Below the pieces are notes generated by a model. That model was not told the DNA's origin. It saw only the letters and a list, made by a program, of their open reading frames with translations, and made no database searches. A stretch of DNA of 32,513 nt from an uncultured Burkholderiales bacterium (GTDB lineage Bacteria; Pseudomonadota; Gammaproteobacteria; Burkholderiales; Burkholderiaceae_C), in the NCBI GenBank assembly GCA_903953985.1, contig CAJBLW010000298.1:1-32513 (forward strand), read 5' to 3'. A program made the position numbers and the translations under genes. Positions 3,453-26,515 of this stretch are shown here, in pieces (within the stretch, counting starts at the first letter, position 1; every line of letters starts with the position of its first letter).

Positions 3453-3779
3453 GTGGCAACCCCACTGGGTGACAAAATTCGCAGGCTGCGCCGTGAGCAG
3501 AAGTTGAGTCTCGACGCACTGGCCGCCGCCGCCGGCATGAGCAAGAGCTATCTGTGGGAGTTGGAGAACAACGACGATGCCAACCCCACCATGGAAAAAC
3601 TGGCCAGCATCGCCGCCGTCTTGAACGTCACGCCTGAGTTTCTGGCGCACAACGAACAGGCCGATCAGCCCGAGGACGCCTTTGACAAGGCGTTCTTTCG
3701 GAACTACAAGACGCTCAAGCCCGAGACCAAGCATCAGCTCCTTGAGATCCTGAAGACCCTCAAGAAAACCCAAGGATGA
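3453..3779 (+). CDS. XRE-family HTH transcriptional regulator
   Basis: GTG start; GDKIRRLRREQKLSLDALAAAAGMSKSYLWELENNDDANPTMEKLASIAAVLNVTPEFL is a typical XRE HTH. Confidence 0.93.
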   Translation: MATPLGDKIRRLRREQKLSLDALAAAAGMSKSYLWELENNDDANPTMEKLASIAAVLNVTPEFLAHNEQADQPEDAFDKAFFRNYKTLKPETKHQLLEILKTLKKTQG

Positions 3780-4729
3780 GTGCCCCGCCCAACAAGCCGG
3801 CACCTTGGGCCAACCGGCTGAACAAGCTCTTAGATCAGTTTCACGCCGTCCATGGTGGCGACCGATTCCCGGTCGATGTGGAAGCGCTGATTCGGGAAGT
3901 GCCGGGCACTTTCCAGACCGGCGAGCCGATCACCATTCAGGGCGAGGCGATGGACCCGGAGTTCGAGGGGGCGCTGTTCAACCTGAATACCGATACGCCG
4001 GGCAAGGGCAACTGGGCCATCATCTACAACCAGGCGATCAGCTCACCGGGGCGAATCCGCTTCACGCTGGCACACGAGCTGGGGCATTACCTGGTGCATC
4101 GCCATCTGCAGACGTCTTTCAACTGCAGCGAGGTGGACACCACTCAGTGGGACAGCGACGAGCGGAAGATTGAGTCCGAAGCGAACACCTTTGCGTCGTA
4201 CCTGCTGATGCCTGCCGACGATTATCGTCGGCAAATTCAAGGTGTGACCATCGATCTGGATGTGCTCGGCGCGTGTGCAGATCGGTATGGTGTGTCCATG
4301 ACGTCGGCAATTCTCAAGTGGCTGGAGCTCACGCCCCAGCGTGCGGTGCTGGTCATGTCCCAGAATGGGGGCGTTCAGTGGGCTTGCGGCAGTGAGTCAG
4401 GCAAGTGGCTCTCCATGCATCTGAACAAACGGCTGGCCAACGGTCAGCGACGGCCACTGCCTGCCAGGAGTGCCACACGTTTGGGCACGGACACCAACGT
4501 CGATCGGCTGGGCACGTCGATCGATGCGAGCATCTGGTTTCCGCAGGAGCCCGAGGGCATGGTGGCGCGGGAGATGCGCATCGCGTCTGATTTCTACCGT
4601 CAAACGATGACGCTGCTGGTCCTACCGCCCGAGGTCAAGCCCTGGGAGCGCGACAAGATGGATGACGACGATGGCCTTGAAAACACCTTCGATCGTTTCG
4701 TGCGTAACGGTCAGCCGCCAGTGCGCTGA
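3776..4729 (+). CDS. ImmA/IrrE-family (DUF955) metallopeptidase
   Basis: HELGHYLVHR zinc-peptidase motif and 'ESEANTFASYLLMP'; ATGA overlap with the XRE gene. Confidence 0.93.
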   Translation: MSAPPNKPAPWANRLNKLLDQFHAVHGGDRFPVDVEALIREVPGTFQTGEPITIQGEAMDPEFEGALFNLNTDTPGKGNWAIIYNQAISSPGRIRFTLAHELGHYLVHRHLQTSFNCSEVDTTQWDSDERKIESEANTFASYLLMPADDYRRQIQGVTIDLDVLGACADRYGVSMTSAILKWLELTPQRAVLVMSQNGGVQWACGSESGKWLSMHLNKRLANGQRRPLPARSATRLGTDTNVDRLGTSIDASIWFPQEPEGMVAREMRIASDFYRQTMTLLVLPPEVKPWERDKMDDDDGLENTFDRFVRNGQPPVR

Positions 4730-5190: not shown

Positions 5191-5427
5191 ATGACACCTC
5201 TCGAACACCCTTCCAAATCCGCCCACCGCGATACTCCTGAGCTTGGGCGCTCGCCTTGCCAGGAAATCGCTCAGTTGCTCGCTGCCGGCATTCTCCGGGC
5301 ACGCACAGGCTCTGCTATGGCGAGCCCGTGTCAGCACGAAGCCACGGCTGGCGAGATATCGCTTGGCTTCACTGGCCACCAGCGCGTTCATACGAACCCG
5401 TCTCAACAAGAAGGAGTTTTCGTATGA
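5191..5427 (+). CDS. Small hypothetical protein upstream of and overlapping DUF2924
   Basis: 78-aa ORF ...ELGRSPCQEIAQLLAAGILRARTGSA...ISLGFTGHQRVHTNP; ATGA overlap with the next gene. Confidence 0.45.
   Translation: MTPLEHPSKSAHRDTPELGRSPCQEIAQLLAAGILRARTGSAMASPCQHEATAGEISLGFTGHQRVHTNPSQQEGVFV
5359..5385 (+). repeat. Dispersed leader motif copy 1 (TCGCTTGGCTTCACTGGCCACCAGCGC)
   Basis: Shares CTTGGCTT-N11-CAGCGC with four other copies; 38 nt before ATG 5424. Confidence 0.8.
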
Positions 5428-5894
5428 CGACACACGCAAGCAAAGAAACGGTCGCCGCGCGTCTCGCGCAATTGCCCTACCTGCCGATGGAAAACATCTG
5501 GGCGCTCTGGGATCAGTATTTTGATCGTCGCCCTGGCCACCATCACCGCACCTGGCTTGAAAGTCGGCTGGCTTACAAGATTCAGGAAGAGGCGTTTGGT
5601 GCCATGTCCTCATCGCTCAAGCGCCGCCTGGAAAAAATCGGTGAGACCGGCGAGGTGCCCAACCAGAAGCGCAGAGCAGAAAACCAGCTGGCGCCGGGTG
5701 CCACCCTGGTCCGCGAATACAACGGCATTGCCCATCAGGTCAAAGTCCTGGACGATGGGCGTTTCGAATACCAGGCCCGTGCCTACAAAAGCTTGTCTGG
5801 GGCGGCCAAGGCCATTACCGGCACCGCCTGGTCGGGACCGGCATTCTTCGGACTGCGCCAACCCGCGCCCAAGCGTCAGGGGGCATTGGCATGA
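5424..5894 (+). CDS. DUF2924 domain protein
   Basis: TWLESRLAYKIQEEAFGAMSSSLKRRLEKIGE...LAPGATLVREYNGIAHQVKVLDDGRFEYQARAYKSLSGAAKAITGTAWSGPAFFGLR; RBS aaggag. Confidence 0.9.
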   Translation: MTTHASKETVAARLAQLPYLPMENIWALWDQYFDRRPGHHHRTWLESRLAYKIQEEAFGAMSSSLKRRLEKIGETGEVPNQKRRAENQLAPGATLVREYNGIAHQVKVLDDGRFEYQARAYKSLSGAAKAITGTAWSGPAFFGLRQPAPKRQGALA

Positions 5895-7339
5895 GAAGAC
5901 CTGTCCATCACTCCAATACGCAAACGCCTGCCACTACACCCAAGCGGCGCTGTGCGGTCTACACCCGAAAGTCCACCGATGAAGGCTTGGACATGGAATA
6001 CAACAGCCTGGAGGCGCAGCGTGATGCGGGGCTTGCCTACATTGCCAGCCAGCGCCATGAAGGTTGGATCGCTGTGGCCGATGGTTATGACGACGGTGGC
6101 TTCTCGGGTGGCAACATGGAGCGGCCCGCGCTGCGCCGATTGATGGCTGACATCGAGGACGGAAAGATCGACATCGTCGTGGTCTACAAAATCGACCGCC
6201 TCACGCGCAGCCTGCCGGATTTCGCGCGACTGGTGGAAGTCTTTGATCGGCACGGAGTCTCGTTCGTGTCTGTGACCCAGCAGTTCAACACCACGACGTC
6301 GATGGGACGCCTGACGCTCAACATCCTGCTGTCTTTTGCCCAGTTCGAACGTGAGGTCACCGGCGAGCGCATCCGCGACAAGATTGCCGCCAGCAAGGCC
6401 AAGGGGATGTGGATGGGCGGCGTGCCTCCCTTGGGCTATGACGTCAAGGATCGCAAGCTGGTCGTCAACGAAAGGGAGGCGGCTCTGGTGCGCGAGATCT
6501 TCATGCGTTACGCGGAGCATGGATCAGCCGCGCGTCTGGTGCGCGAACTCCAGGTTGAAGGCCACACCACCAAGTCCTGGGAGACCCAGACCGGTAAGTT
6601 CCACCACGGTCGGATCATTGATCAGCAGTACCTGTTCAAGCTGATGCGCAATCGTCTGTACCTGGGTGAGATCACGCACAAGGGCGAGGTTTTCAAAGGC
6701 CAACACCAGCCCATCATCTCGACGGCGCAATGGGAGGCGGTCGACGCCATCGTTGCGCAACGCAAGCGCAGCACGACCCGTGACCGCTACAACGAGACCC
6801 CGGCGCTGCTGGCGGGATTCCTCTATGCCCCCGACGGCCAGCGCATGCTGCCTACATACACGCAGAAGAAAAACGGCAAGCGGTACCACTACTACGTTCC
6901 CTACCTGGAAAAGCGCCAGACCGCTGGTGCATCACGCATCCCTGGGCAGCGCAGCATGGGGCCCATGCCGGCCGCTGAAATCGAATCAGCTGTGCTGATG
7001 CAGGTCCTGCGCGTGTTGCAGGAGCCCGAGATGATCATCGGCGTGTGGCGCGAAGTGCTGGCAATGCAGGAGCAACCCGGACTCGATGAAGCCATGATCG
7101 TGGTGGCCATGCGCCGTATCGGTGACATCTGGGCGCAGATGTTCCCGGTGGAGCAGCACCGCATCATGCGGCTGCTGATCGAGCGTGTGCAACTGCACCC
7201 GAATGGCCTCGACATTGTCTGGCGTGAAGACGGATGGCACCGATTCCGGCGTGAACTGGCCCAGCACCCCTTTGTGGTGGAGCAGAAAGATGCGCCCGCC
7301 ATGGGGCGCCTCGGCCATGATGAAGAGGTGATGGCATGA
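5891..7339 (+). CDS. Large serine recombinase (resolvase/invertase N-terminal domain + recombinase domain)
   Basis: CAVYTRKSTDEGLDMEYNSLEAQRDA...DDGGFSGGNMERPALRRLMADIEDGKIDIVVVYKIDRLTRS; ATGA overlap with DUF2924. Confidence 0.95.
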   Translation: MRRPVHHSNTQTPATTPKRRCAVYTRKSTDEGLDMEYNSLEAQRDAGLAYIASQRHEGWIAVADGYDDGGFSGGNMERPALRRLMADIEDGKIDIVVVYKIDRLTRSLPDFARLVEVFDRHGVSFVSVTQQFNTTTSMGRLTLNILLSFAQFEREVTGERIRDKIAASKAKGMWMGGVPPLGYDVKDRKLVVNEREAALVREIFMRYAEHGSAARLVRELQVEGHTTKSWETQTGKFHHGRIIDQQYLFKLMRNRLYLGEITHKGEVFKGQHQPIISTAQWEAVDAIVAQRKRSTTRDRYNETPALLAGFLYAPDGQRMLPTYTQKKNGKRYHYYVPYLEKRQTAGASRIPGQRSMGPMPAAEIESAVLMQVLRVLQEPEMIIGVWREVLAMQEQPGLDEAMIVVAMRRIGDIWAQMFPVEQHRIMRLLIERVQLHPNGLDIVWREDGWHRFRRELAQHPFVVEQKDAPAMGRLGHDEEVMA

Positions 7340-7797
7340 GCCAATCCACCCCGCAACGTTGCAAGATTGAGATATCCGTATCGGGTCCGTCGCGTGAATA
7401 CCAGAGCCAGGGCTCGGCGGTGACCTTCGTCCCCCTGACCATCAAGCGTCGTCACACCCGCAAACTGCTGATTGCGCCGCCTGGCCAGGAAGATGCCAAG
7501 GTCCGCTCATCATTTGACCTGCCCATGATCCGAACGATCGGCAAGGCTTTTTACTGGCAAAAGCTGCTCGACAGTGGCGAGGTCGCCAACGCGACCGAAC
7601 TGGCGCGACAGTTGAAACTCGAGCCAGGGTGGGTCGCAGAGGTAATGCGGCTTACACGCCTGGCACCCGACATCGTGCAGGCTGTTTTGGATGGTCGCCA
7701 GCCGCGCCACCTCAATCTTCACGCAGTCCGGGGCCGCCAGGCGGACGTGCCTGTGGACTGGGATGAGCAGCGACGGTTGCTGGGCTTTTGTCTATGA
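7336..7797 (+). CDS. Hypothetical protein with HTH-like segment, recombinase-associated
   Basis: ATGA overlap with the recombinase; 'GEVANATELARQLKLEPGWVAEVMRLTRLAPDIVQAVLDGR' looks like a ParB-type HTH. Confidence 0.75.
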   Translation: MSQSTPQRCKIEISVSGPSREYQSQGSAVTFVPLTIKRRHTRKLLIAPPGQEDAKVRSSFDLPMIRTIGKAFYWQKLLDSGEVANATELARQLKLEPGWVAEVMRLTRLAPDIVQAVLDGRQPRHLNLHAVRGRQADVPVDWDEQRRLLGFCL

Positions 7798-9996: not shown

Positions 9997-10023
9997 GCGC
10001 TTGGCTTCATTGCCAACCAGCGC
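9997..10023 (+). repeat. Dispersed leader motif copy 2 (GCGCTTGGCTTCATTGCCAACCAGCGC)
   Basis: Matches the five-copy motif; 34 nt before ATG 10058; foldable as GCGCTTGGC-TTCATT-GCCA-(ACC)-AGCGC. Confidence 0.8.
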
Positions 10024-10057
10024 CTCAATGGTGGTCATTCAACATCAATGAGTCACC

Positions 10058-10264
10058 ATGGAAATCCGACACCTGAATCAAAAGCAGCTGGCTGAACGCT
10101 GGCAGATCAGCGAAGCATCTCTTGAGCGTTGGCGCTCTGAAAAACTTGGCCCTGATTATCTCAAGCTGCATGGTCGGGTCTTATACCGACAACAAGACAT
10201 CGAAGCATTCGAGTCGCGCTGCTTGAGAAGCATGCGGCCTCAGGCCGACAGCGCAAGCCCCTGA
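10058..10264 (+). CDS. HTH (excisionase/MerR-like) DNA-binding protein, paralogue A
   Basis: LNQKQLAERWQISEASLERWRSEKLGPDYLKLHGRVLYRQQDIEAFE. Confidence 0.85.
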   Translation: MEIRHLNQKQLAERWQISEASLERWRSEKLGPDYLKLHGRVLYRQQDIEAFESRCLRSMRPQADSASP

Positions 10265-15773: not shown

Positions 15774-16114
15774 ATGCGCGTCTTCCTCAACCCGTCATCG
15801 AGGCATTGACGGTGACCACTCGTCGCCAGAAACCCCTGATCGGTGCATCCCTGCTGGAGCGTCTGCTACTTCGCCATGTCGCTGTCGTGTGTCCGGAGTC
15901 GCGACTGGTCGTGGCTGTCATCAAACAGGCATTCATTGACCTGTGTTCGCCCTCTAAACATCTGCGCACTGAGGCCAGACGTTTCTTTCGAGACGGGCGC
16001 CTGGAGCTGTGGTGCGACCAGGTCGGTCTGTCCCCCAACTTCATGCGAGAGATCGCGACCAAGGCTGGCTACTTGAATCCGGCAGACACCGATGAAGGAG
16101 GTGTCCATGCTTGA
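15770..16114 (+). CDS. Hypothetical phage protein
   Basis: 114 aa; ATGA overlap with the nuclease gene. Confidence 0.75.
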   Translation: MNARLPQPVIEALTVTTRRQKPLIGASLLERLLLRHVAVVCPESRLVVAVIKQAFIDLCSPSKHLRTEARRFFRDGRLELWCDQVGLSPNFMREIATKAGYLNPADTDEGGVHA

Positions 16115-18419
16115 TTTCAACGACCAAGACCCAGCTGTTTCATCGCCCACCGGGAATGCCGAGCGGGATGAACTGCGATCGGCCTTGATGGCACGGCTCG
16201 AGGGCGTGCTGTTTGCTTTATTTCCGGCGGGCAAGGTGACACACGGCAAATTCGTCGTTGGCGATGTGCTGGGCAGTCCAGGTCGCAGTCTGGAGATTGA
16301 GCTGGATGGTGAACGGGCGGGCCTGTGGATCGACCGCGCCACGGGCAATGGTGGCGATGTCTTTGCGCTCATTGCTGCGCACCGCCATTGGGACACGCAT
16401 CGTGATTTCGCGGCCGTCCTCGGTTTCGCCCGGGAACTGCTCGGCCGTGCACCCGCCGTGTCACCCGCCAAACGCAAGGCAAGCGCGCCGGTGGATGAGT
16501 TAGGTCCAGCCACCGCCAAGTGGGACTACCTGGCCGCTGACGGCACTCTGATTGCCTGCGTGTATCGCTATGAGCCCAGTCCTGGACGTAAGGAATTCCG
16601 CCCTTGGGATGCCAAGCGTCGCAAAATGGCGCCGCCCGATCCGAGGCCGTTGTTCAACCAGCCTGGCATTGCTCATGCCGACCGGGTGATTCTGGTCGAG
16701 GGCGAAAAATGCGCCCAGGCCTTGATCGACGTGGGCCACTGCGCGACCACCGCGATGCACGGTGCCAACGCACCGATCGACAAGACCGACTGGTCGCCCG
16801 TTCAGGGTAAGCATGTCCTGATTTGGCCCGACCGCGACAAACCAGGCTGGGAGTACGCCATGAATGCCGCCGAGGCGGTCATGGCAGCGGGTGCCCAGCA
16901 ATGCGCGGTGTTGATGCCGCCGTCCAATCCCACGGCGCAAGACCCCCAAGGGAGTGCGGATGGCTGGGACGCAGCCGACGCCATTGCTGAGGGCTTTGAT
17001 GTGGAGGCCTTCCTTGCCCACGGTGAGCGTATCCAGTTCCAGCCTTCAACGCCAGACATCACGCAGGCAGCAGATCCGACCGAGCAATCGGTGTGGGCCA
17101 CCGAAGACGCACTGGCGCTGACTTTCTCCGGTCGGTACGCCCAGGACTGGCGCTATGTCGCGTTGTGGGGAAAGTGGGTGTTCTGGACTGGCAAGCGCTG
17201 GCAAACCGAGGAGACTCTGGCGGCGCACCACCTGATGCGCCAGATCTGTCGGGAGGCCGCACTCAAGGCTGATTCTCACCGGGTGGCCGCCAAACTCGCC
17301 AGCAGTGGCACGGTGGCTGGCTTGGAGCGGCTCGCACGCTCCGATCGGCGTCATGCCGCCACCGCCGACGAGTGGGATGCCGACCCCTGGCTGCTCAACA
17401 CGCCAGGCGGCGTGGTGAATCTCAAGAATGGCGTGCTGCGCTCCCACGACCGTCTGGACCGACTGACCAAGATCACGACGGCCACCCCCGCGGGTGATTG
17501 CCCCATCTGGCGGCAGTTCATCCATGAGGTCACGGGCGGTGATCAGCCTCTGCAGGCCTATCTTGCCCGGATGGCAGGGTATGCCCTGACTGGATCGACA
17601 CGCGAGCACGCGCTGTTCTTCCTGTACGGCACGGGTGCCAACGGCAAATCTGTCTTCGTGAACACCCTGGCCACCATCCTAGGGGACTACGCCACCAACG
17701 CTCCCATGGACACGTTCATGGAAACCCGCACGGACCGGCACCCGACCGATATGGCCAGCTTGCGTGGGGCCCGGTTTGTCGCCGCCATCGAAACCGAGCA
17801 AGGGCGACGCTGGGCGGAGTCCAAGGTGAAGAGCTTGACCGGTGGCGACAAGATCTCTGCGCGCTTCATGCGCCAGGATTTTTTCGAGTTCATGCCGCAG
17901 TTCAAGCTGATCGTGGCAGGCAATCACAAGCCAGCCATCCGCAACATCGACGAAGCGATGAAGCGGCGCCTCCACCTGATCCCGTTCACGATCACCGTCC
18001 CACCGGAAAGGCGCGACAAGCACCTACAGCAAAAACTGCTGGCCGAACGGGATGGGATCCTGGCTTGGGCGGTTCAAGGCTGTCTGGAGTGGCAGCGTCA
18101 GGGCCGGCTCGACCCGCCCCAGCAGGTGCTCGATGCCACCGATGAGTACTTCGAAGAAGAGGACGCAATTGGTGAGTTCCTGGACGAGGACTGCCAGCAA
18201 TCGCCCGTGGCGCGGGAAGCGATTTCCGCGATCTACCAGCGCTGGCGTGAGCGCGCTGAGCGGCGTGGCGAGTACGTGGGCACCAGCCGGTGGCTGACCC
18301 AGCAACTCATCAACCGTGGGTTTGCGCGCACACGCCTGCATGGCGGGGCAAAAGCTCTGTCAGGCCTCTCGCTCAAACCCCGCGAGCCGGGCGGCTACAT
18401 GCCCTATCGCGACGACTGA
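16107..18419 (+). CDS. P4-alpha-type primase/helicase (TOPRIM + D5/SF3 helicase)
   Basis: VILVEGEKCAQALID TOPRIM; FFLYGTGANGKSVFVNTL; RQDFFEFMPQFKLIVAGNHKPAI; RBS gaaggaggt before ATG 16107. Confidence 0.93.
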   Translation: MLDFNDQDPAVSSPTGNAERDELRSALMARLEGVLFALFPAGKVTHGKFVVGDVLGSPGRSLEIELDGERAGLWIDRATGNGGDVFALIAAHRHWDTHRDFAAVLGFARELLGRAPAVSPAKRKASAPVDELGPATAKWDYLAADGTLIACVYRYEPSPGRKEFRPWDAKRRKMAPPDPRPLFNQPGIAHADRVILVEGEKCAQALIDVGHCATTAMHGANAPIDKTDWSPVQGKHVLIWPDRDKPGWEYAMNAAEAVMAAGAQQCAVLMPPSNPTAQDPQGSADGWDAADAIAEGFDVEAFLAHGERIQFQPSTPDITQAADPTEQSVWATEDALALTFSGRYAQDWRYVALWGKWVFWTGKRWQTEETLAAHHLMRQICREAALKADSHRVAAKLASSGTVAGLERLARSDRRHAATADEWDADPWLLNTPGGVVNLKNGVLRSHDRLDRLTKITTATPAGDCPIWRQFIHEVTGGDQPLQAYLARMAGYALTGSTREHALFFLYGTGANGKSVFVNTLATILGDYATNAPMDTFMETRTDRHPTDMASLRGARFVAAIETEQGRRWAESKVKSLTGGDKISARFMRQDFFEFMPQFKLIVAGNHKPAIRNIDEAMKRRLHLIPFTITVPPERRDKHLQQKLLAERDGILAWAVQGCLEWQRQGRLDPPQQVLDATDEYFEEEDAIGEFLDEDCQQSPVAREAISAIYQRWRERAERRGEYVGTSRWLTQQLINRGFARTRLHGGAKALSGLSLKPREPGGYMPYRDD

Positions 18420-18440: not shown

Positions 18441-18534
18441 GGTGACCGAAAGTGACCGGCATATCGTTATCTCTCTACACGTGTACGTGCGCAGGCGCGA
18501 GCGGATAACGAGAAACGGGTCACCTTCGGTCACC
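18441..18534. repeat. 31-nt inverted repeat with GGTNACC sites in the primase-RuvC gap (candidate origin/operator)
   Basis: Arms 18441-18471 and 18504-18534 pair at 26/31; contain GGTGACC, AGTGACC, GGTCACC, GGTCACC, each pair spaced 10 bp; spacer has palindrome TACACGTGTA. Confidence 0.7.
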
Positions 18535-18561: not shown

Positions 18562-19035
18562 ATGAACACAATGACCATCCTCGCCCTTGATCTGGGCACA
18601 CAAACCGGCTGGGCACTGACCAGCCGCGACGGCAGCATCACCAGTGGCAGCCAATCCTTCAAACCCCAACGCTTCGAAGGCGGCGGCATGCGCTTTCTGC
18701 GGTTCAAGCGCTGGCTCACCGACATCAAGCAGTGCAACGACGGCATTGACCAGGTGGTGTTTGAAGAGGTCCGCCGCCACGCCGGTGTGGATGCCGCCCA
18801 TGCCTACGGCGGCTTCATGGGCCAACTGACAGCCTGGTGTGAGCACCACCCAATCCCGTACCAGGGCATTCCGGTCGGCACGATCAAGAAGCACGCCACC
18901 GGCAAGGGCAATGCCAGCAAGGACGAGATGGTCGCATCCGTCCGTGCCCGTGGCCACAACCCGGCTGACGACAACGAGGCTGACGCCATCGCCTTGCTGT
19001 ACCTGGCCCGTGAGATGACCATGGAGGGTGCGTGA
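18562..19035 (+). CDS. RuvC-like Holliday junction resolvase
   Basis: ILALDLGTQTGWAL, VVFEEVRRH, DDNEADAIALLYLA RNase H-fold acidic motifs. Confidence 0.88.
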   Translation: MNTMTILALDLGTQTGWALTSRDGSITSGSQSFKPQRFEGGGMRFLRFKRWLTDIKQCNDGIDQVVFEEVRRHAGVDAAHAYGGFMGQLTAWCEHHPIPYQGIPVGTIKKHATGKGNASKDEMVASVRARGHNPADDNEADAIALLYLAREMTMEGA

Positions 19036-19036
19036 C

Positions 19037-19246
19037 ATGAAAGTGCCGCAATACCGCTATCGCTGCCCTCTGGGCAACCTGCAGCCCACTACGCCAGACC
19101 TGGACGCCGTCAAACGCGAAGGCTGGCGCACCGATCACATCCTGGTGGTCAGCGAGCACGACGAACGGCTCGACTGGGTGGAGAAACAGTTCGTCCGTCG
19201 TCTGGGTGAACGCCTCTACGGTGAGGGAGGCAAGCGCCATGACTGA
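19037..19246 (+). CDS. Small hypothetical protein
   Basis: 69 aa in operon context; MKVPQYRYRCPLGNLQ.... Confidence 0.6.
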   Translation: MKVPQYRYRCPLGNLQPTTPDLDAVKREGWRTDHILVVSEHDERLDWVEKQFVRRLGERLYGEGGKRHD

Positions 19247-19631
19247 GGCCAGAACCGAATGGACTGTGGACGATGTGGCCGCCCGGTTTGCTGAGGCTGC
19301 CGAGATTGCACACAAGCTGCCCCGAGTCCGCCCGGGCGGCTACTACAACCCCTGGATGACGCTGGCCATGCAGGTGCCCGAGCGCTACCCCGACCCGGAG
19401 CGCCTGTACCGGCCCATGCCCCCCAGCCCCAAAGCGGTGGAGCGGATGCTCGAGACCATGCGCTGGGTGCAGTGGCTGGAGGTCGAGCAGCGGCATCTGG
19501 TGTGGATGCGTTCGAACCGGTATCGCTGGGAGCAGATCGGTCGGCGGTTTGCCTGCGCGGCAAGAACGGCACAGCGGCGGTACGACGCTGCCATCCATCT
19601 GGTCGCTCTGCACCTGAACAAGGGACACTAA
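19239..19631 (+). CDS. DUF6362-like protein
   Basis: WTVDDVAARFAEAAEIAHKLP...RYRWEQIGRRFACAARTAQRRY, HTH-like C-terminus. Confidence 0.75.
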   Translation: MTEARTEWTVDDVAARFAEAAEIAHKLPRVRPGGYYNPWMTLAMQVPERYPDPERLYRPMPPSPKAVERMLETMRWVQWLEVEQRHLVWMRSNRYRWEQIGRRFACAARTAQRRYDAAIHLVALHLNKGH

Positions 19632-21922: not shown

Positions 21923-23207
21923 ACCTTGGCTCTCCACCCATATCGAGCGCTGGCCCACCGAGAAACTGGTGCCCTACGCCCGCAATGCCCGTACCCACTC
22001 AGAGGAGCAGGTGGCGCAGATTGCGGCATCCATCGTCGAGTTCGGGTTCACCAATCCGATCCTGGCGGGGTCCGATGGCGTGATCGTGGCGGGCCATGGA
22101 CGTCTCGCCGCCGCGCAAAAGCTCGGTCTGGATACCGTGCCGGTGGTCGTCCTCGATCATCTGACACCCACCCAGCGCCGCGCGCTGATCATTGCGGACA
22201 ACCGCATTGCAGAAAACGCCGGCTGGGACGACACCATGCTGCGCATCGAACTGCAGTCGCTGCAGGAAGACGGCTTCAATCTGGATATCACCGGATTTGA
22301 CGCCGATGCCCTGGCCGAAATCATGGCAGGCGAAGAGACCACGGTCGATGGCCAAACGGATGACGATGCGGTGCCCGAAGTGCCCGTCACTCCGATTTCC
22401 CGCCCAGGCGATGTCTGGGAGCTGGGCAAGCACCGGCTGGTGTGCGGCGATGCCACCGACCCCAAGAGCTACGAGCTGCTGATGGCAGAAGCCCAGGCCG
22501 ACATGGTCTTCAGCGATCCACCGTACAACGTGGACTACGCCAACAGCGCCAAGGACAAGATGCGCGGCAAGGATCGCCCAATCCTGAACGACAACCTGGG
22601 CGATGGTTTCTACGACTTCTTGCTGGCTGCGATGACGCCGATGTTGTCGCGCTGTGGCGGAGCCGTCTATGTGGCCATGTCATCCAGTGAGCTGGACACG
22701 CTGCAGTCCGCCTTCCGGGCGGCTGGCGGCAAGTGGTCCACCTTCATCATCTGGGCCAAGAACACCTTCACGCTCGGCCGCGCCGACTACCAACGCCAGT
22801 ACGAGCCCATCCTCTATGGCTGGCCCGAAGGCCAGAACCGCCACTGGTGCGGTGACCGCGACCAGGGCGATGTGTGGAACATCAAGAAGCCGCAGAAGAA
22901 CGACCTGCACCCGACCATGAAGCCGGTGGAGTTGGTCGAGCGGGCCATCCGCAATTCCAGCCGGCCAGGCGACATCGTGCTGGACCCGTTTGGCGGTTCT
23001 GGCACCACACTCATCGCTGCTGAAAAATCCGGCCGCATCGGCTGGCTGATTGAACTCGATCCCAAGTACGTGGACGTGATCGTGCGTCGCTGGCAGGACT
23101 GGAGTGGGCAGGAAGCTTACCGGGAAGCCGATGCGGTCAAATTCAATGATTTGGCGGCAACAGCAAGCGTGCTGATATCAGCAGATCCAGAGGAGGCCGA
23201 CGAATGA
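21915..23207 (+). CDS. ParB/sulfiredoxin-domain + DNA methyltransferase fusion 2
   Basis: PYARNARTHSEEQVAQIAASIVEFGFTNPILAG...GHGRLAAAQKL; FSDPPYNVDY; HPTMKPVELVERAI; FGGSGTTLIAA. Confidence 0.95.
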   Translation: MSEPWLSTHIERWPTEKLVPYARNARTHSEEQVAQIAASIVEFGFTNPILAGSDGVIVAGHGRLAAAQKLGLDTVPVVVLDHLTPTQRRALIIADNRIAENAGWDDTMLRIELQSLQEDGFNLDITGFDADALAEIMAGEETTVDGQTDDDAVPEVPVTPISRPGDVWELGKHRLVCGDATDPKSYELLMAEAQADMVFSDPPYNVDYANSAKDKMRGKDRPILNDNLGDGFYDFLLAAMTPMLSRCGGAVYVAMSSSELDTLQSAFRAAGGKWSTFIIWAKNTFTLGRADYQRQYEPILYGWPEGQNRHWCGDRDQGDVWNIKKPQKNDLHPTMKPVELVERAIRNSSRPGDIVLDPFGGSGTTLIAAEKSGRIGWLIELDPKYVDVIVRRWQDWSGQEAYREADAVKFNDLAATASVLISADPEEADE

Positions 23208-23452
23208 AGCAGTCGCGCCTGATGTCCCTCGTGGAGTCGCTGGCCAATGTGCTGGTGGGTTATGTCGTGGCGGTGGCCACGCAGATGGCGGTGTTCCCGC
23301 TGTTCGGCCTGGCAGTGACCGTCACCGAAAACCTGCTGATCGGCTTGATCTTCACGGCCGTCTCGATCGTGCGCAGCTACGCGCTGCGCCGGGGCTTTGA
23401 AGCCCTCCGGGTGCGTCAGTCGGCCAGGGCCTCTTCGACGATCTCGCAGTGA
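23204..23452 (+). CDS. Small membrane protein (DUF7220-like)
   Basis: SLANVLVGYVVAVATQMAVFPLF...NLLIGLIFTAVSIVRSYALRRGFEAL; ATGA overlap with methyltransferase 2. Confidence 0.75.
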   Translation: MKQSRLMSLVESLANVLVGYVVAVATQMAVFPLFGLAVTVTENLLIGLIFTAVSIVRSYALRRGFEALRVRQSARASSTISQ

Positions 23453-23781
23453 ATCACAAAGCCCGTCAGGTAGGGCAGCCCCTTGGGGATCCCGTGCTGC
23501 TTGCTGGTCAGGCGGCCGATGGTCCAGCCCATCCAGCGTTGGGTGGCGGCGTGGATCGCATCCTTCAGATTCGATCCGGCGTGCAGGCCGTTCAACACAT
23601 CGTCGGCAAAGTGGCGACCGTGGCGGCTGTCCAGGAAGGTGCGGACCGATTCGAGAGGCTGGTTGGTGGCGTCCGAAATCGTGGTCATCGCGATCGGCCA
23701 GGCAGTTTGGGCTTGATCATTCATCGTGCCCCAAAAGCCCCAGGCTTCGTTCTGGGTGGCAGGGATGTGAGTGGTGGTCAT
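23416..23781 (-). CDS. Hypothetical protein
   Basis: 121-aa ORF preceded by leader motif copy 5; convergent 37-bp overlap with 23204-23452. Confidence 0.75.
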   Translation of the reverse strand: MTTTHIPATQNEAWGFWGTMNDQAQTAWPIAMTTISDATNQPLESVRTFLDSRHGRHFADDVLNGLHAGSNLKDAIHAATQRWMGWTIGRLTSKQHGIPKGLPYLTGFVIHCEIVEEALAD

Positions 23782-23820
23782 CGTCGGCTCCGTGTCTGTG
23801 TTGGCGATGACTCCATTGAC

Positions 23821-23847
23821 GCGCTGTAGGGCATGGAAGCCAAGGCT
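23821..23847 (-). repeat. Dispersed leader motif copy 5 (AGCCTTGGCTTCCATGCCCTACAGCGC)
   Basis: Part of a 24-bp exact repeat (GGCGATGACTCCATTGACGCGCTG, 23803-23826 = 24161-24184) and shared flanks; 39 nt before the start at 23781. Confidence 0.9.
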
Positions 23848-23874
23848 TTCTCGATCATTTTTTTGAGAGCGTGA

Positions 23875-24138
23875 TCATTTTGCGACGCTGGCCAGTTCGG
23901 CCTGTGCGTTGGCGATCAGGTCCAGACGCAGATTGGGCGTGATGTTGCAGGCCAGGGCGTTGAGCGCCCAGTTCATCACCTGCGATTTGTCGTGCGGGGT
24001 TTCGGCCGTGTCGAGCCGCTCGATGTAATGGTCCAACTCGCGCAGGCTGCGCTCCAGGGTGGATCGGGCGGTGAGCAAGGCGTCTTTGGCCTTTTGCTCG
24101 GTCATCTGGCGCATCAAGGTGTCGAGGTCGAGGGTCAT
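23875..24138 (-). CDS. Hypothetical protein, 87 aa
   Basis: MTLDLDTLMRQMTEQKAKDALLTARSTLERSLRELDHYIERLD; RBS aaggag. Confidence 0.75.
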   Translation of the reverse strand: MTLDLDTLMRQMTEQKAKDALLTARSTLERSLRELDHYIERLDTAETPHDKSQVMNWALNALACNITPNLRLDLIANAQAELASVAK

Positions 24139-24178
24139 GGTGAGGCTCCTTCAATCGTTGGGCGATGACTCCATTGAC

Positions 24179-24205
24179 GCGCTGCTGCGATGCAAAGCCA
24201 AGGCT
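24179..24205 (-). repeat. Dispersed leader motif copy 4 (AGCCTTGGCTTTGCATCGCAGCAGCGC)
   Basis: Shares 24 bp exactly with copy 5; 40 nt before the start at 24138. Confidence 0.9.
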
Positions 24206-24242
24206 TTGATGGAAGAAGATGGTCAGCGTGGCGGCAGAGCCA

Positions 24243-24602
24243 CTACCCCAGGCGGGCCGCGTAGCGGGCGTAGTCCCCGCCCGACGGATCGACATAGAGG
24301 TACGGGCGTCCGGGGGCATGGACTTCCACGCACAAACGTCCCTGGCCGACATAGCCACCTTTGCCGGCCAGCCAGTCGCGCGAGACCAGCAGGTTGGCAG
24401 CAAACCCATCGAACTCCTCGGGCGTCATGGTCCGGGTCTCGGTGACATAGACGAGGTAGTCGCCGCTGGCGCTCATGTCATGGATGTTCTCGGGCTTGCG
24501 CGCAAAGGGCAGCCGGATGCCGAGTTGCTCGACCTGGATATCTTGGCCCTCCCACTGGAGGGCCACCGGGGTGCGTTCAATGGTGATGGACATGCTGGGC
24601 AT
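24243..24602 (-). CDS. Hypothetical protein, 119 aa (start may be 24593)
   Basis: MPSMSITIERTPVALQWEGQDIQVEQLGIRLPFARKPENIHDMSASGDYLVYVTETRTMTPEEFDGF.... Confidence 0.7.
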   Translation of the reverse strand: MPSMSITIERTPVALQWEGQDIQVEQLGIRLPFARKPENIHDMSASGDYLVYVTETRTMTPEEFDGFAANLLVSRDWLAGKGGYVGQGRLCVEVHAPGRPYLYVDPSGGDYARYAARLG

Positions 24603-24936
24603 GACGGGCCTTTCTGGTTTGATTTGAAACCTGGTTGGTGGATCGGTGCTTGGGGCTGGCGGCCTTGGCCTGCGAGGCTTCGACGCCCGCCAGTGCCAGG
24701 GTGAGCACGGCGTTATGAAATGCCGCTTCGGCCAAACAGGGCGCGAGCCGCGCGTCTTCGAGCAGGCGGTCGATGCTTGGTGCCACCTTGCCCCGCATCG
24801 CGGAACACACCGCCTCCTGGCGCGCTGGGCTGGCGCTGCGGATTTCGGGGCAAAGGCTGATCAGGGTGCGAAACGCCTGGTCGGCCAGGCGCTGCCCGAG
24901 TTCATCGATCCGAGCAAAGTTGCGGCAGGCGTTCAT
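24577..24936 (-). CDS. Hypothetical protein, 119 aa
   Basis: MNACRNFARIDELGQRLADQAFRTLISLCPEIRSASPARQEAV...; ATGA-type overlap with the DUF3489 gene. Confidence 0.7.
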   Translation of the reverse strand: MNACRNFARIDELGQRLADQAFRTLISLCPEIRSASPARQEAVCSAMRGKVAPSIDRLLEDARLAPCLAEAAFHNAVLTLALAGVEASQAKAASPKHRSTNQVSNQTRKARHAQHVHHH

Positions 24937-25499
24937 GCAGCCTCCGAATTGATAGCGGTAGCGGTGCCTGCGGACGCGGACTCGATGCGGTAAACGCGCT
25001 GACCACCGGCCTCCTTGGCTGATGTGATGGTCAGCCCCAAACGCTTCTTGAGCGTGCCGGCCAGGGTCCCGCGCACGGTGTGCTGTTGCCACCCCGTGGC
25101 CTCCATGATCTGCGTGATCGTGGCGCCCTCGGGGCGCTGCAGCAGGCCAATGACCAGGGCCTGTTTGCTGTCGGCGCGGGTGCGAACCGGCTTGCCCTGG
25201 GCGGGCTGCTGCCAACTGGCCTCGGCACTGGCTACATCGGCCTCCAGCTCTGGATCGTCCAGCGTGATGGTCGGTGGCAAGGCGCCCGGTCGGGGCAGGC
25301 CCAAGGCGTCGTAGCCCTCGGCAGCCACCACCCAGTCATCGCCGTCAGGCGTGATCAGGGCACGTTTGAACAAGCCTTCGAGCACCTTGGCACGGGCGCC
25401 GCCCTTGATGTGCTCGGGGAACCAGACGATTTTGCCGCCGCTGTGTTGTACGGCGTGCTCCAGGATGGCCTGCTGGTTGGGGTTGAGTGCGGTGGTCAT
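24933..25499 (-). CDS. DUF3489-like winged-helix protein
   Basis: RADSKQALVIGLLQRPEGATITQIMEATGWQQHTVRGTLAGTLKKRLGLTITSAKEAGGQRVYRI. Confidence 0.9.
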   Translation of the reverse strand: MTTALNPNQQAILEHAVQHSGGKIVWFPEHIKGGARAKVLEGLFKRALITPDGDDWVVAAEGYDALGLPRPGALPPTITLDDPELEADVASAEASWQQPAQGKPVRTRADSKQALVIGLLQRPEGATITQIMEATGWQQHTVRGTLAGTLKKRLGLTITSAKEAGGQRVYRIESASAGTATAINSEAA

Positions 25500-25506
25500 G
25501 GCGCCC

Positions 25507-25782
25507 TCACGCTTGCAGGACGGCGGTGCTGCCGTTGCCGGGATGGGCCTTGCGCGTGCGGTGCACGGCCTGCTTCGGGCTTCCACCGGCTGCGCGCAGC
25601 CCAGCATCAAACGCGGCTTGCAGGGCGCTTTTGACACCCCAGACGCTCACGTCGTGGAAGTCCAGGCTGTCGCGGTGGCGAGTTTGCAGGGTTTCGATGA
25701 ACAGGTGGTCCAGGGCAATCGATTCGAGCAAGAGCTCGACTTCGTCGGGGGAGAGTGCGGTGGGTTGCTTGGGTTTGGCCAT
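25507..25782 (-). CDS. DUF6900-like protein
   Basis: MAKPKQPTALSPDEVELLLESIALDHLFIETLQTRHRDSLDFHDVSVWGVKSALQAAFDAGLRA; RBS aaggag before 25782. Confidence 0.8.
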   Translation of the reverse strand: MAKPKQPTALSPDEVELLLESIALDHLFIETLQTRHRDSLDFHDVSVWGVKSALQAAFDAGLRAAGGSPKQAVHRTRKAHPGNGSTAVLQA

Positions 25783-25828
25783 GTGGGGCTCCTTGGTGGG
25801 TTGCTTGTCAATCGACATCCGCATTCAC

Positions 25829-25855
25829 GCGCTGTGCGCCACAGAAGCCAAGCGC
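25829..25855 (-). repeat. Dispersed leader motif copy 3 (GCGCTTGGCTTCTGTGGCGCACAGCGC)
   Basis: Matches the five-copy motif; 46 nt before the start at 25782; inner perfect hairpin CTGTG-GCG-CACAG. Confidence 0.8.
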
Positions 25856-25939
25856 TTTTTAATCCCGGGTGATTCACTCGCCTTTGCATGAAAAACCGCA
25901 TACAGGAGGCCACCCACTTGCACTGAGTAGATCAACACC

Positions 25940-26515
25940 ATGGGACTGTCCATTCGCGCCTATGCGCGCCACCGAGGCGTGTCGCACGTGGCCGTCAAGA
26001 AGGCCATCGATACCGGGCGCATCAGCCAGTTGCCGGATGGCACCATCGATCCGGTGGTGGCCGATGCCCAATGGGCGGCCAACACCACGCCGACCCGGCG
26101 GTCGGCGACTGCTGAGGTCAGGGAGACTCCGCAGGTTCCCGTATCTGCCCGCGAGATTCCGCAGGCTTCCGCACGGCCACCACGGGAAACGACTGAGCCA
26201 CCCACCCCGGCGCTGTCCTCCGGTGGCACATCGCTGCTGCAGGCCCGCACCGTCAACGAAGTGGTCAAGGCGCAGACCAACAAGGTGCGCCTTGCCCGTC
26301 TCAAGGGTGAACTGGTCGATCGCTCACAGGCTGTGGCCCATGTGTTCAAGCTGGCCCGTGCTGAGCGCGATGCCTGGCTTAACTGGCCGGCACGCATCTC
26401 GTCACAGATGGCCGCTGGGCTGGGCGTTGATCCGCATGTCTTGCATGTGACGCTGGACGCCGCCGTGCGCCAGCAACTGCAGGACCTGGGCGACTTGCAA
26501 GCCAAGGTAGATTGA
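25940..26515 (+). CDS. Terminase small subunit-like HTH protein
   Basis: N-terminal HTH (RAYARHRGVSHVAVKKAIDTGRI), C-terminal helical domain, immediately before TerL. Confidence 0.75.
   Translation: MGLSIRAYARHRGVSHVAVKKAIDTGRISQLPDGTIDPVVADAQWAANTTPTRRSATAEVRETPQVPVSAREIPQASARPPRETTEPPTPALSSGGTSLLQARTVNEVVKAQTNKVRLARLKGELVDRSQAVAHVFKLARAERDAWLNWPARISSQMAAGLGVDPHVLHVTLDAAVRQQLQDLGDLQAKVD

Follow-up and report, generated by a model that had tools for sequence, protein, structure and literature searches.

A 30-nt element, probably a phage-specific promoter, precedes recombinase operons and small-gene islets in prophages of proteobacteria

The stretch of 32,513 nucleotides from an uncultured Burkholderiales bacterium analysed here (the window) contains five copies of a 30-nt element, CTTGGCTT-N10-CAGCGCGT(T/G/C)(C/A)AT, which is present in hundreds of phage contigs and prophages of Beta- and Gammaproteobacteria with up to seven copies per contig. 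Judged from its sequence, the element is, on balance, probably a phage-specific promoter, i.e. a site for RNA polymerase acting with a partner or specificity factor of a non-standard kind. Each gene or small operon has its own copy, by which the recombinase operon, the HTH_17 genes and the reverse islet would come under joint control.

The five copies of the preliminary description were all recovered at their coordinates and strands (Table 1). They point at the downstream gene, the start codon of which lies 38, 34, 46, 40 and 39 nt past the core in copies 1 to 5, respectively. The N11 spacer proposed for them returned no match, the correct form being CTTGGCTT-N10-CAGCGC. The length of 27 nt counts three bases 5' of CTT, and the element continues as GT(T/G/C)(C/A)AT to 30 nt. 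The WW at -5/-4, ahead of CTT, also belongs to the conserved element (index 0 being the C of CTTGG). Copies 4 and 5 have the 24-bp exact block CAGCGCGTCAATGGAGTCATCGCC in common, and an in-frame TAA lies upstream of copy 3, both as described earlier. The exact pattern occurs seven times in the 3.7-Mb assembly, always on the 103-kb contig C298, and five of these copies fall inside the window. It was absent from the rest of the genome, and the reversed control pattern gave no match in the same 3.7-Mb assembly. The recurrence of seven copies is far above chance. Both additional copies on the contig, at 48034 (+) and 102279 (-) (loci L334 and L335), precede HTH_17-type genes; the latter is located outside the prophage region.

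Table 1 Element copies, leader hairpins and associated genes in the window
Feature	Position	Strand	Remarks
Element copy 1, 30 nt	5362..5391	+	CTTGGCTTCACTGGCCACCAGCGCGTTCAT; predicted +1 at 5398
Recombinase-operon leader hairpin over ribosome site	5392..5423	+	ACGAA 5392-5396 / TTCGT 5419-5423; DUF2924-leader covariation z 5.9
DUF2924 gene, gene 1 of recombinase operon	5424..5894	+	PF11149, 3e-45
Large serine recombinase	5891..7339	+	PF00239 and PF07508
Recombinase operon gene 3	7336..7797	+	phrog_14161
Element copy 2	10000..10029	+	CTTGGCTTCATTGCCAACCAGCGCCTCAAT; predicted +1 at 10036
Leader hairpin GGTGGTCATT/AATGAGTCACC, immediately 5' of HTH gene start	10030..10057	+	
HTH_17 (AlpA/excisionase-like) gene	10058..10264	+	Weak HTH_17 match (7.5e-06), just under cut-off; phrog_66 excisionase, 1e-05
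Element copy 3	25823..25852	-	Predicted +1 at 25816; in short divergent region opposite ORF 25940+
DUF6900 gene, gene 1 of reverse islet	25507..25782	-	PF21841, 3e-24; start 46 nt past core
DUF3489 gene, two predicted winged-helix domains	24933..25499	-	PF11994, 9e-31; elsewhere often with its own element copy
Element copy 4	24173..24202	-	Predicted +1 at 24166
Small gene behind copy 4	23875..24138	-	Without Pfam or PHROG family
Element copy 5	23815..23844	-	Predicted +1 at 23808
phrog_8020 gene behind copy 5	23416..23781	-	Present in 12/12 compared elements

Other features of the window were recorded alongside. A tRNA gene near the left edge (320-392) is a possible integration site. An XRE regulator followed by an ORF resembling an ImmA/IrrE peptidase (3453-4729) likely forms a lysogeny module. 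An imperfect inverted repeat with 31-nt arms, 84% complementary and 32 nt apart (18441-18534), is located between a primase-like ORF (16092-18419) and the ORF 18562-19035 and may act as a signal for replication or termination.

The collections were sampled by pattern, and the counts obtained from them are lower bounds that are also inflated by related copies; the key statistics were taken from non-redundant sets. Coding starts were inferred and do not derive from annotation. A scan of one genome per species yielded matches that included Burkholderiales, Rhodocyclales, Xanthomonadales, Thiomonas, Methylocaldum and Candidatus Nitrospira defluvii, and the Acidithiobacillus phage AcaML1 carries four copies. 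Within prophages from the family of the source bacterium, the recurring layout is an islet with two to five copies together with another copy at a DUF2924 gene, usually at a distance of 14-18 kb. A plasmid search gave short chance matches only, and a literature search with the motif strings CAGCGCGTTCAT, CAGAGCGTTCAT and GAAGCGTTCAT retrieved no phage paper describing the element among the hits listed.

GTTCAT directly follows the core in 262 of the 425 unique core matches listed, and most of the remaining true set continues with GTTACT, GTGAAT or GTCAAT. A Shine-Dalgarno/ATG start was found 31-49 nt downstream of 312 of the 357 full-element sites listed, compared with 8 of 62 cores that continue differently and 3.2% of random positions, which is a strong enrichment ahead of start codons. 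Downstream of the element, the genes group into 25 or more unrelated clusters, headed in size by DUF2924 (at least 111), DUF3489 (at least 79), phrog_8020 (at least 69) and DUF6900 (at least 69). These copies ahead of the starts of multiple gene families support the earlier proposal of one putative regulon comprising the recombinase operon, the HTH gene and the reverse islet. One small-gene family, represented in the window at 24243-24602, has the element in front at 27 loci elsewhere; in the window there is no exact copy upstream of it.

As a less biased sample, DUF2924 genes were gathered by family and not by motif. The exact core was present at 17 of the 39 genes inspected, and most of the others showed a divergent block in which the 30-nt spacing was kept. 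The divergent forms include CTTGGCTT-N10-CAGAGCGTTCAT, CTTGGCTT-N10-GAGCGCGTTCAT and CTTGCTAT-N10-CGAAGCGTTCAT, the part common to all versions being CTTG-N18-GCGTTCAT. Searching those genomes and viral contigs for the divergent forms revealed further islets. Within one stretch the variant is uniform (165 pure, 7 mixed), and since G538 and G596, which belong to one genus, carry different variants, the variant follows the mobile element and not the host. Seven loci (L563, L568, L579, L596, L608, L611 and L627) hold islets of the GAAGCG type with copies on both strands; an upstream palindrome (GAACGnnCGTTC) accompanies a few copies of this type, and a GCCGC/GCGGC stem occurs in many of the leaders. 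The presence of the same element ahead of unrelated genes, combined with a variable islet content, would also be consistent with a recombination linker, a boundary sequence conserved for promoting the exchange of small-gene cassettes between phages. This explanation is very unlikely, as it does not account for the single copies before DUF2924 operons, the divergent versions with conserved spacing and the geometry relative to the start codon.

The preliminary description favoured a nucleotide-level element over a peptide, partly on account of codon fixation, and neither of the two findings that it named as refuting this was made: the sites are enriched ahead of start codons, CTTGGCTT is hardly variable, the Leu and Gly codons occur without synonymous exchanges, and variation of the synonymous kind was not found. 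A profile search contributed 36 non-exact copies next to 417 exact ones among the matches listed; two copies contain an in-frame TAG and one a 1-nt deletion. A conserved leader peptide LGFxxxQRV could be suspected from one frame that is similar across many copies and that ends at an ATGA overlap in many DUF2924 leaders. However, in a set of 185 copies the real start is found in all three phases (74/65/46), stops lie upstream in 78 and an in-frame ATG is available in just 41; upstream, 107 copies keep the CTT frame open, compared with 83 and 109 for the other two frames. Together with the frameshift, the internal stops and the codon usage, this leads us to reject the peptide, which we regard as scarcely credible.

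In the promoter reading, TTGGCT would represent the -35 region, followed after 17 bp by a -10 region GTTCAT (or GTGAAT, GTCAAT, GTTACT), with CAGCGC as a conserved extended -10 block and the WW, then at -41/-40, as a proximal UP-type site. Transcription is predicted to start at index 36, 6-7 nt past the -10 region, which would begin a short A/C-rich leader with a Shine-Dalgarno site. The resulting 8-10-12 architecture is fixed across unrelated genes, and its spacing is also kept in the CTTG-N18-GCGTTCAT versions. Among 128 non-redundant copies, positions -5/-4 are occupied by AA in 51, TT in 34, AT in 8 and TA in 3 (W 86% and 80%, z > 9), and AA and TT replace each other inside one gene family (DUF6900, 7/8). 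Such a swap points to reading through the minor groove and hence to DNA, as it is not predicted for a single-stranded RNA. With TTGGCT as the -35 region, these bases fall at -41/-40, which is a known position of the C-terminal domain of the RNA polymerase alpha subunit. W peaks are found near -41, -52 and -62, the latter two being weaker; at 10.5 bp the power is higher than under a random-shift null (p <= 0.0015, -60..-4), with a best-fitting W period that varies between 9.5 and 12.25, so that the helical phasing is approximate only. The predicted start itself shows Y in 98% at -1, R in 75% at +1 and Y in 93% at +2 (128 non-redundant copies). An independent divergent set of 70 copies, collected with another pattern, repeats both features, with TT in 17, AA in 17 and AT in 13 copies and Y-R-Y at index 35-37. 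One divergent class of 16 copies has a hairpin that starts at the predicted +1, in which pairs 36-51 to 40-47 are formed in 14-16 of the 16 copies, pair 35-52 in 12 and outer pairs in at most 6.

Sigma-70 sites were not enriched upstream of the copies, and the window region 23200-26200 contains neither a sigma-70 site nor an intrinsic terminator by the definition of the tool used. The promoter of the reverse islet must sit in the short region of copy 3, because the islet diverges from ORF 25940+. In sigma-70 scoring, TTGGCT reached +4.4 with a spacing of 17, which agrees with the usual 16-18 bp, and GTTCAT scored -0.6, without an A at -11. A plain sigma-70 promoter is hence disfavoured on its -10 hexamer, and a further factor must be assumed. 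A more far-reaching version, possible though doubtful, is a promoter class of its own specificity (CTTG-N18-GCGTTCAT), for which a phage-encoded factor, perhaps DUF3489 or a sigma-like protein, would retarget the host RNA polymerase in many proteobacterial orders and which would drift with the prophage and not with the host. Besides the poor -10 hexamer and the varying W period, three observations count against a promoter: start codons follow the core at a distance (34-43 nt in most cases) that is held within narrower limits than a promoter requires; a purine occupies the predicted +1 in only 9 of 36 DUF2924 and 0 of 6 HTH_17 leaders; and the leader hairpin of the recombinase operon requires an RNA that starts upstream of the predicted +1.

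This hairpin is formed in the DUF2924 leaders by the bases right after GTTCAT, which pair with the ribosome-binding region. The pairs covary (ACAAC/GTTGT, GCGAAC/GTTCGC, GGACTCC/GGAGTCC and GCGGTCTCC/GGAGATCGC), and 33 DUF2924 leaders reached a mean score of 5.59 compared with 4.50 for permuted partners, none of 500 permutations being as high (z 5.9). The same test gave little or nothing in the other families, the main islet families included (best z 2.1). The HTH_17 leaders, including that of copy 2, fold over the start as judged by eye; few of them are independent. The hairpins noted earlier in copies 1 and 2 are assigned to this separate ribosome-site structure and not to the common element. 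Its 5' arm occupies index 29-38, for the most part the interval that separates the -10-like block from the predicted +1 (index 36), and we therefore propose that in the recombinase operon the hairpin would hide the ribosome site in read-through transcripts only.

The tight distance to the start codon, the A/C-rich leaders with Shine-Dalgarno sites and the existence of this covarying hairpin in the recombinase-operon leaders would also fit an RNA leader element, an unfolded mRNA block to which a phage protein or small RNA would bind to regulate translation of the gene set. We consider this unlikely. RNAalifold found no common structure in 146 diverse copies (-0.5 kcal/mol), which excludes one conserved RNA fold and bears out the doubt already expressed about a single structure. 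The MFE z is near 0 in most islet families, the AA/TT interchange and the upstream W phasing fit DNA, and no alternative promoter is apparent upstream. In Rfam, the only match in the window was the tRNA, with no described RNA family at the element.

Besides serving as a promoter core, the element might be the operator of a phage transcription factor, e.g. the tandem winged-helix protein DUF3489, next to a weak promoter. All compared elements that have a full islet region encode DUF3489, and it is also located near 55 of about 80 loci of the divergent type. Its model consists of two winged-helix domains joined by a flexible or disordered linker, which would suit a bipartite site, and the structures closest to it belong mostly to winged-helix DNA binders, none with E < 0.001. 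On the other hand, the site is without dyad symmetry, its spacing is promoter-like, and none of the DUF3489 columns follows the motif variant closely (the highest normalised score being 0.32, V/I); specificity residues that follow the motif type were not found. The operator is accordingly rather improbable in our view. The fragment G558c apart, DUF2924 and the recombinase are present in all compared elements. At locus L357, read by eye, a DUF3489-like gene ends immediately 5' of DUF2924 and a copy of the element is missing, and this adjacency suggests a DUF3489-DUF2924-recombinase unit in which DUF3489 and DUF2924 are functionally linked. The DUF2924 model shows no clear DNA-binding fold and no PDB relative. 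The DUF6362 protein (window 19239-19631) resembles sigma region 4 by eye and is encoded between recombination and methylase genes. As a reader it is weakened, since the corresponding place in AcaML1 is taken by a DUF6456 protein, none is seen in G404 and G400, and the search for a solved relative was negative. HTH_17 was undetected in G404, G400 and G344 and was dismissed as a universal reader.

The regulon proposed here brings together mostly uncharacterised genes (DUF2924, DUF3489, DUF6900, phrog_8020 and many small islet genes), and its 30-base signature can be used to predict gene starts and to find such islets in prophages across many proteobacteria. If the element is a promoter, the non-canonical -10 region implies a phage-encoded or hijacked specificity factor that can be searched for directly. 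The leader hairpin offers a possible mechanism for shielding excision recombinases from stray transcription.

The closest parallel is provided by the ESAS/SAS repeats of Cluster K mycobacteriophages, which lie in one orientation just 5' of unrelated, mostly small phage genes (PMC3203893, PMC11373665). ESAS consist of imperfect 15-17-bp inverted repeats with SigA-like hexamers and adjoin the 13-bp SAS at the ribosome site (PMC3203893, PMC11373665); the promoter-like -35/-10 hexamers are 17-18 bp apart (PMC11373665), and the motif varies between phage subclusters (PMC3203893, PMC11373665). Similarly, the element is multicopy, oriented with the gene and placed ahead of many gene families, its hexamer spacing is promoter-like, and its variant differs between phages. 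In contrast to ESAS/SAS, the 13-bp GGGATAGGAGCCC is missing from the ribosome site in a consensus of 146-316 copies, the core lacks a dyad (palindromic arms occur in some upstream flanks only), the -10 region is not sigma-70-like, the hosts are proteobacterial and the sequence is unrelated. The element hence appears to work like ESAS but is not one, because the inverted repeats and the SAS block are missing.

In PeSL cassettes of T4-type phages, a sigma-70 early promoter is accompanied by a terminator stem-loop. Like them, the element is a repeated regulatory cassette before small accessory genes and may favour gene shuffling, although its islet region has no sigma-70 or terminator match. In IS10 and IS50, a hairpin shields the ribosome site of the transposase mRNA in transcripts that start upstream. 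The covarying helix of the recombinase operon likewise covers the ribosome site, and a similar read-through protection is proposed; unlike IS10/IS50, this operon has no transposon ends, and its hairpin is indicated by covariation. Finally, AlpA activates the integrase gene of CP4-57. The window recombinase is of the serine type, whereas the CP4-57 integrase is a tyrosine recombinase, yet here as well an HTH_17/AlpA-like gene and a recombinase operon are joined in the same regulon.
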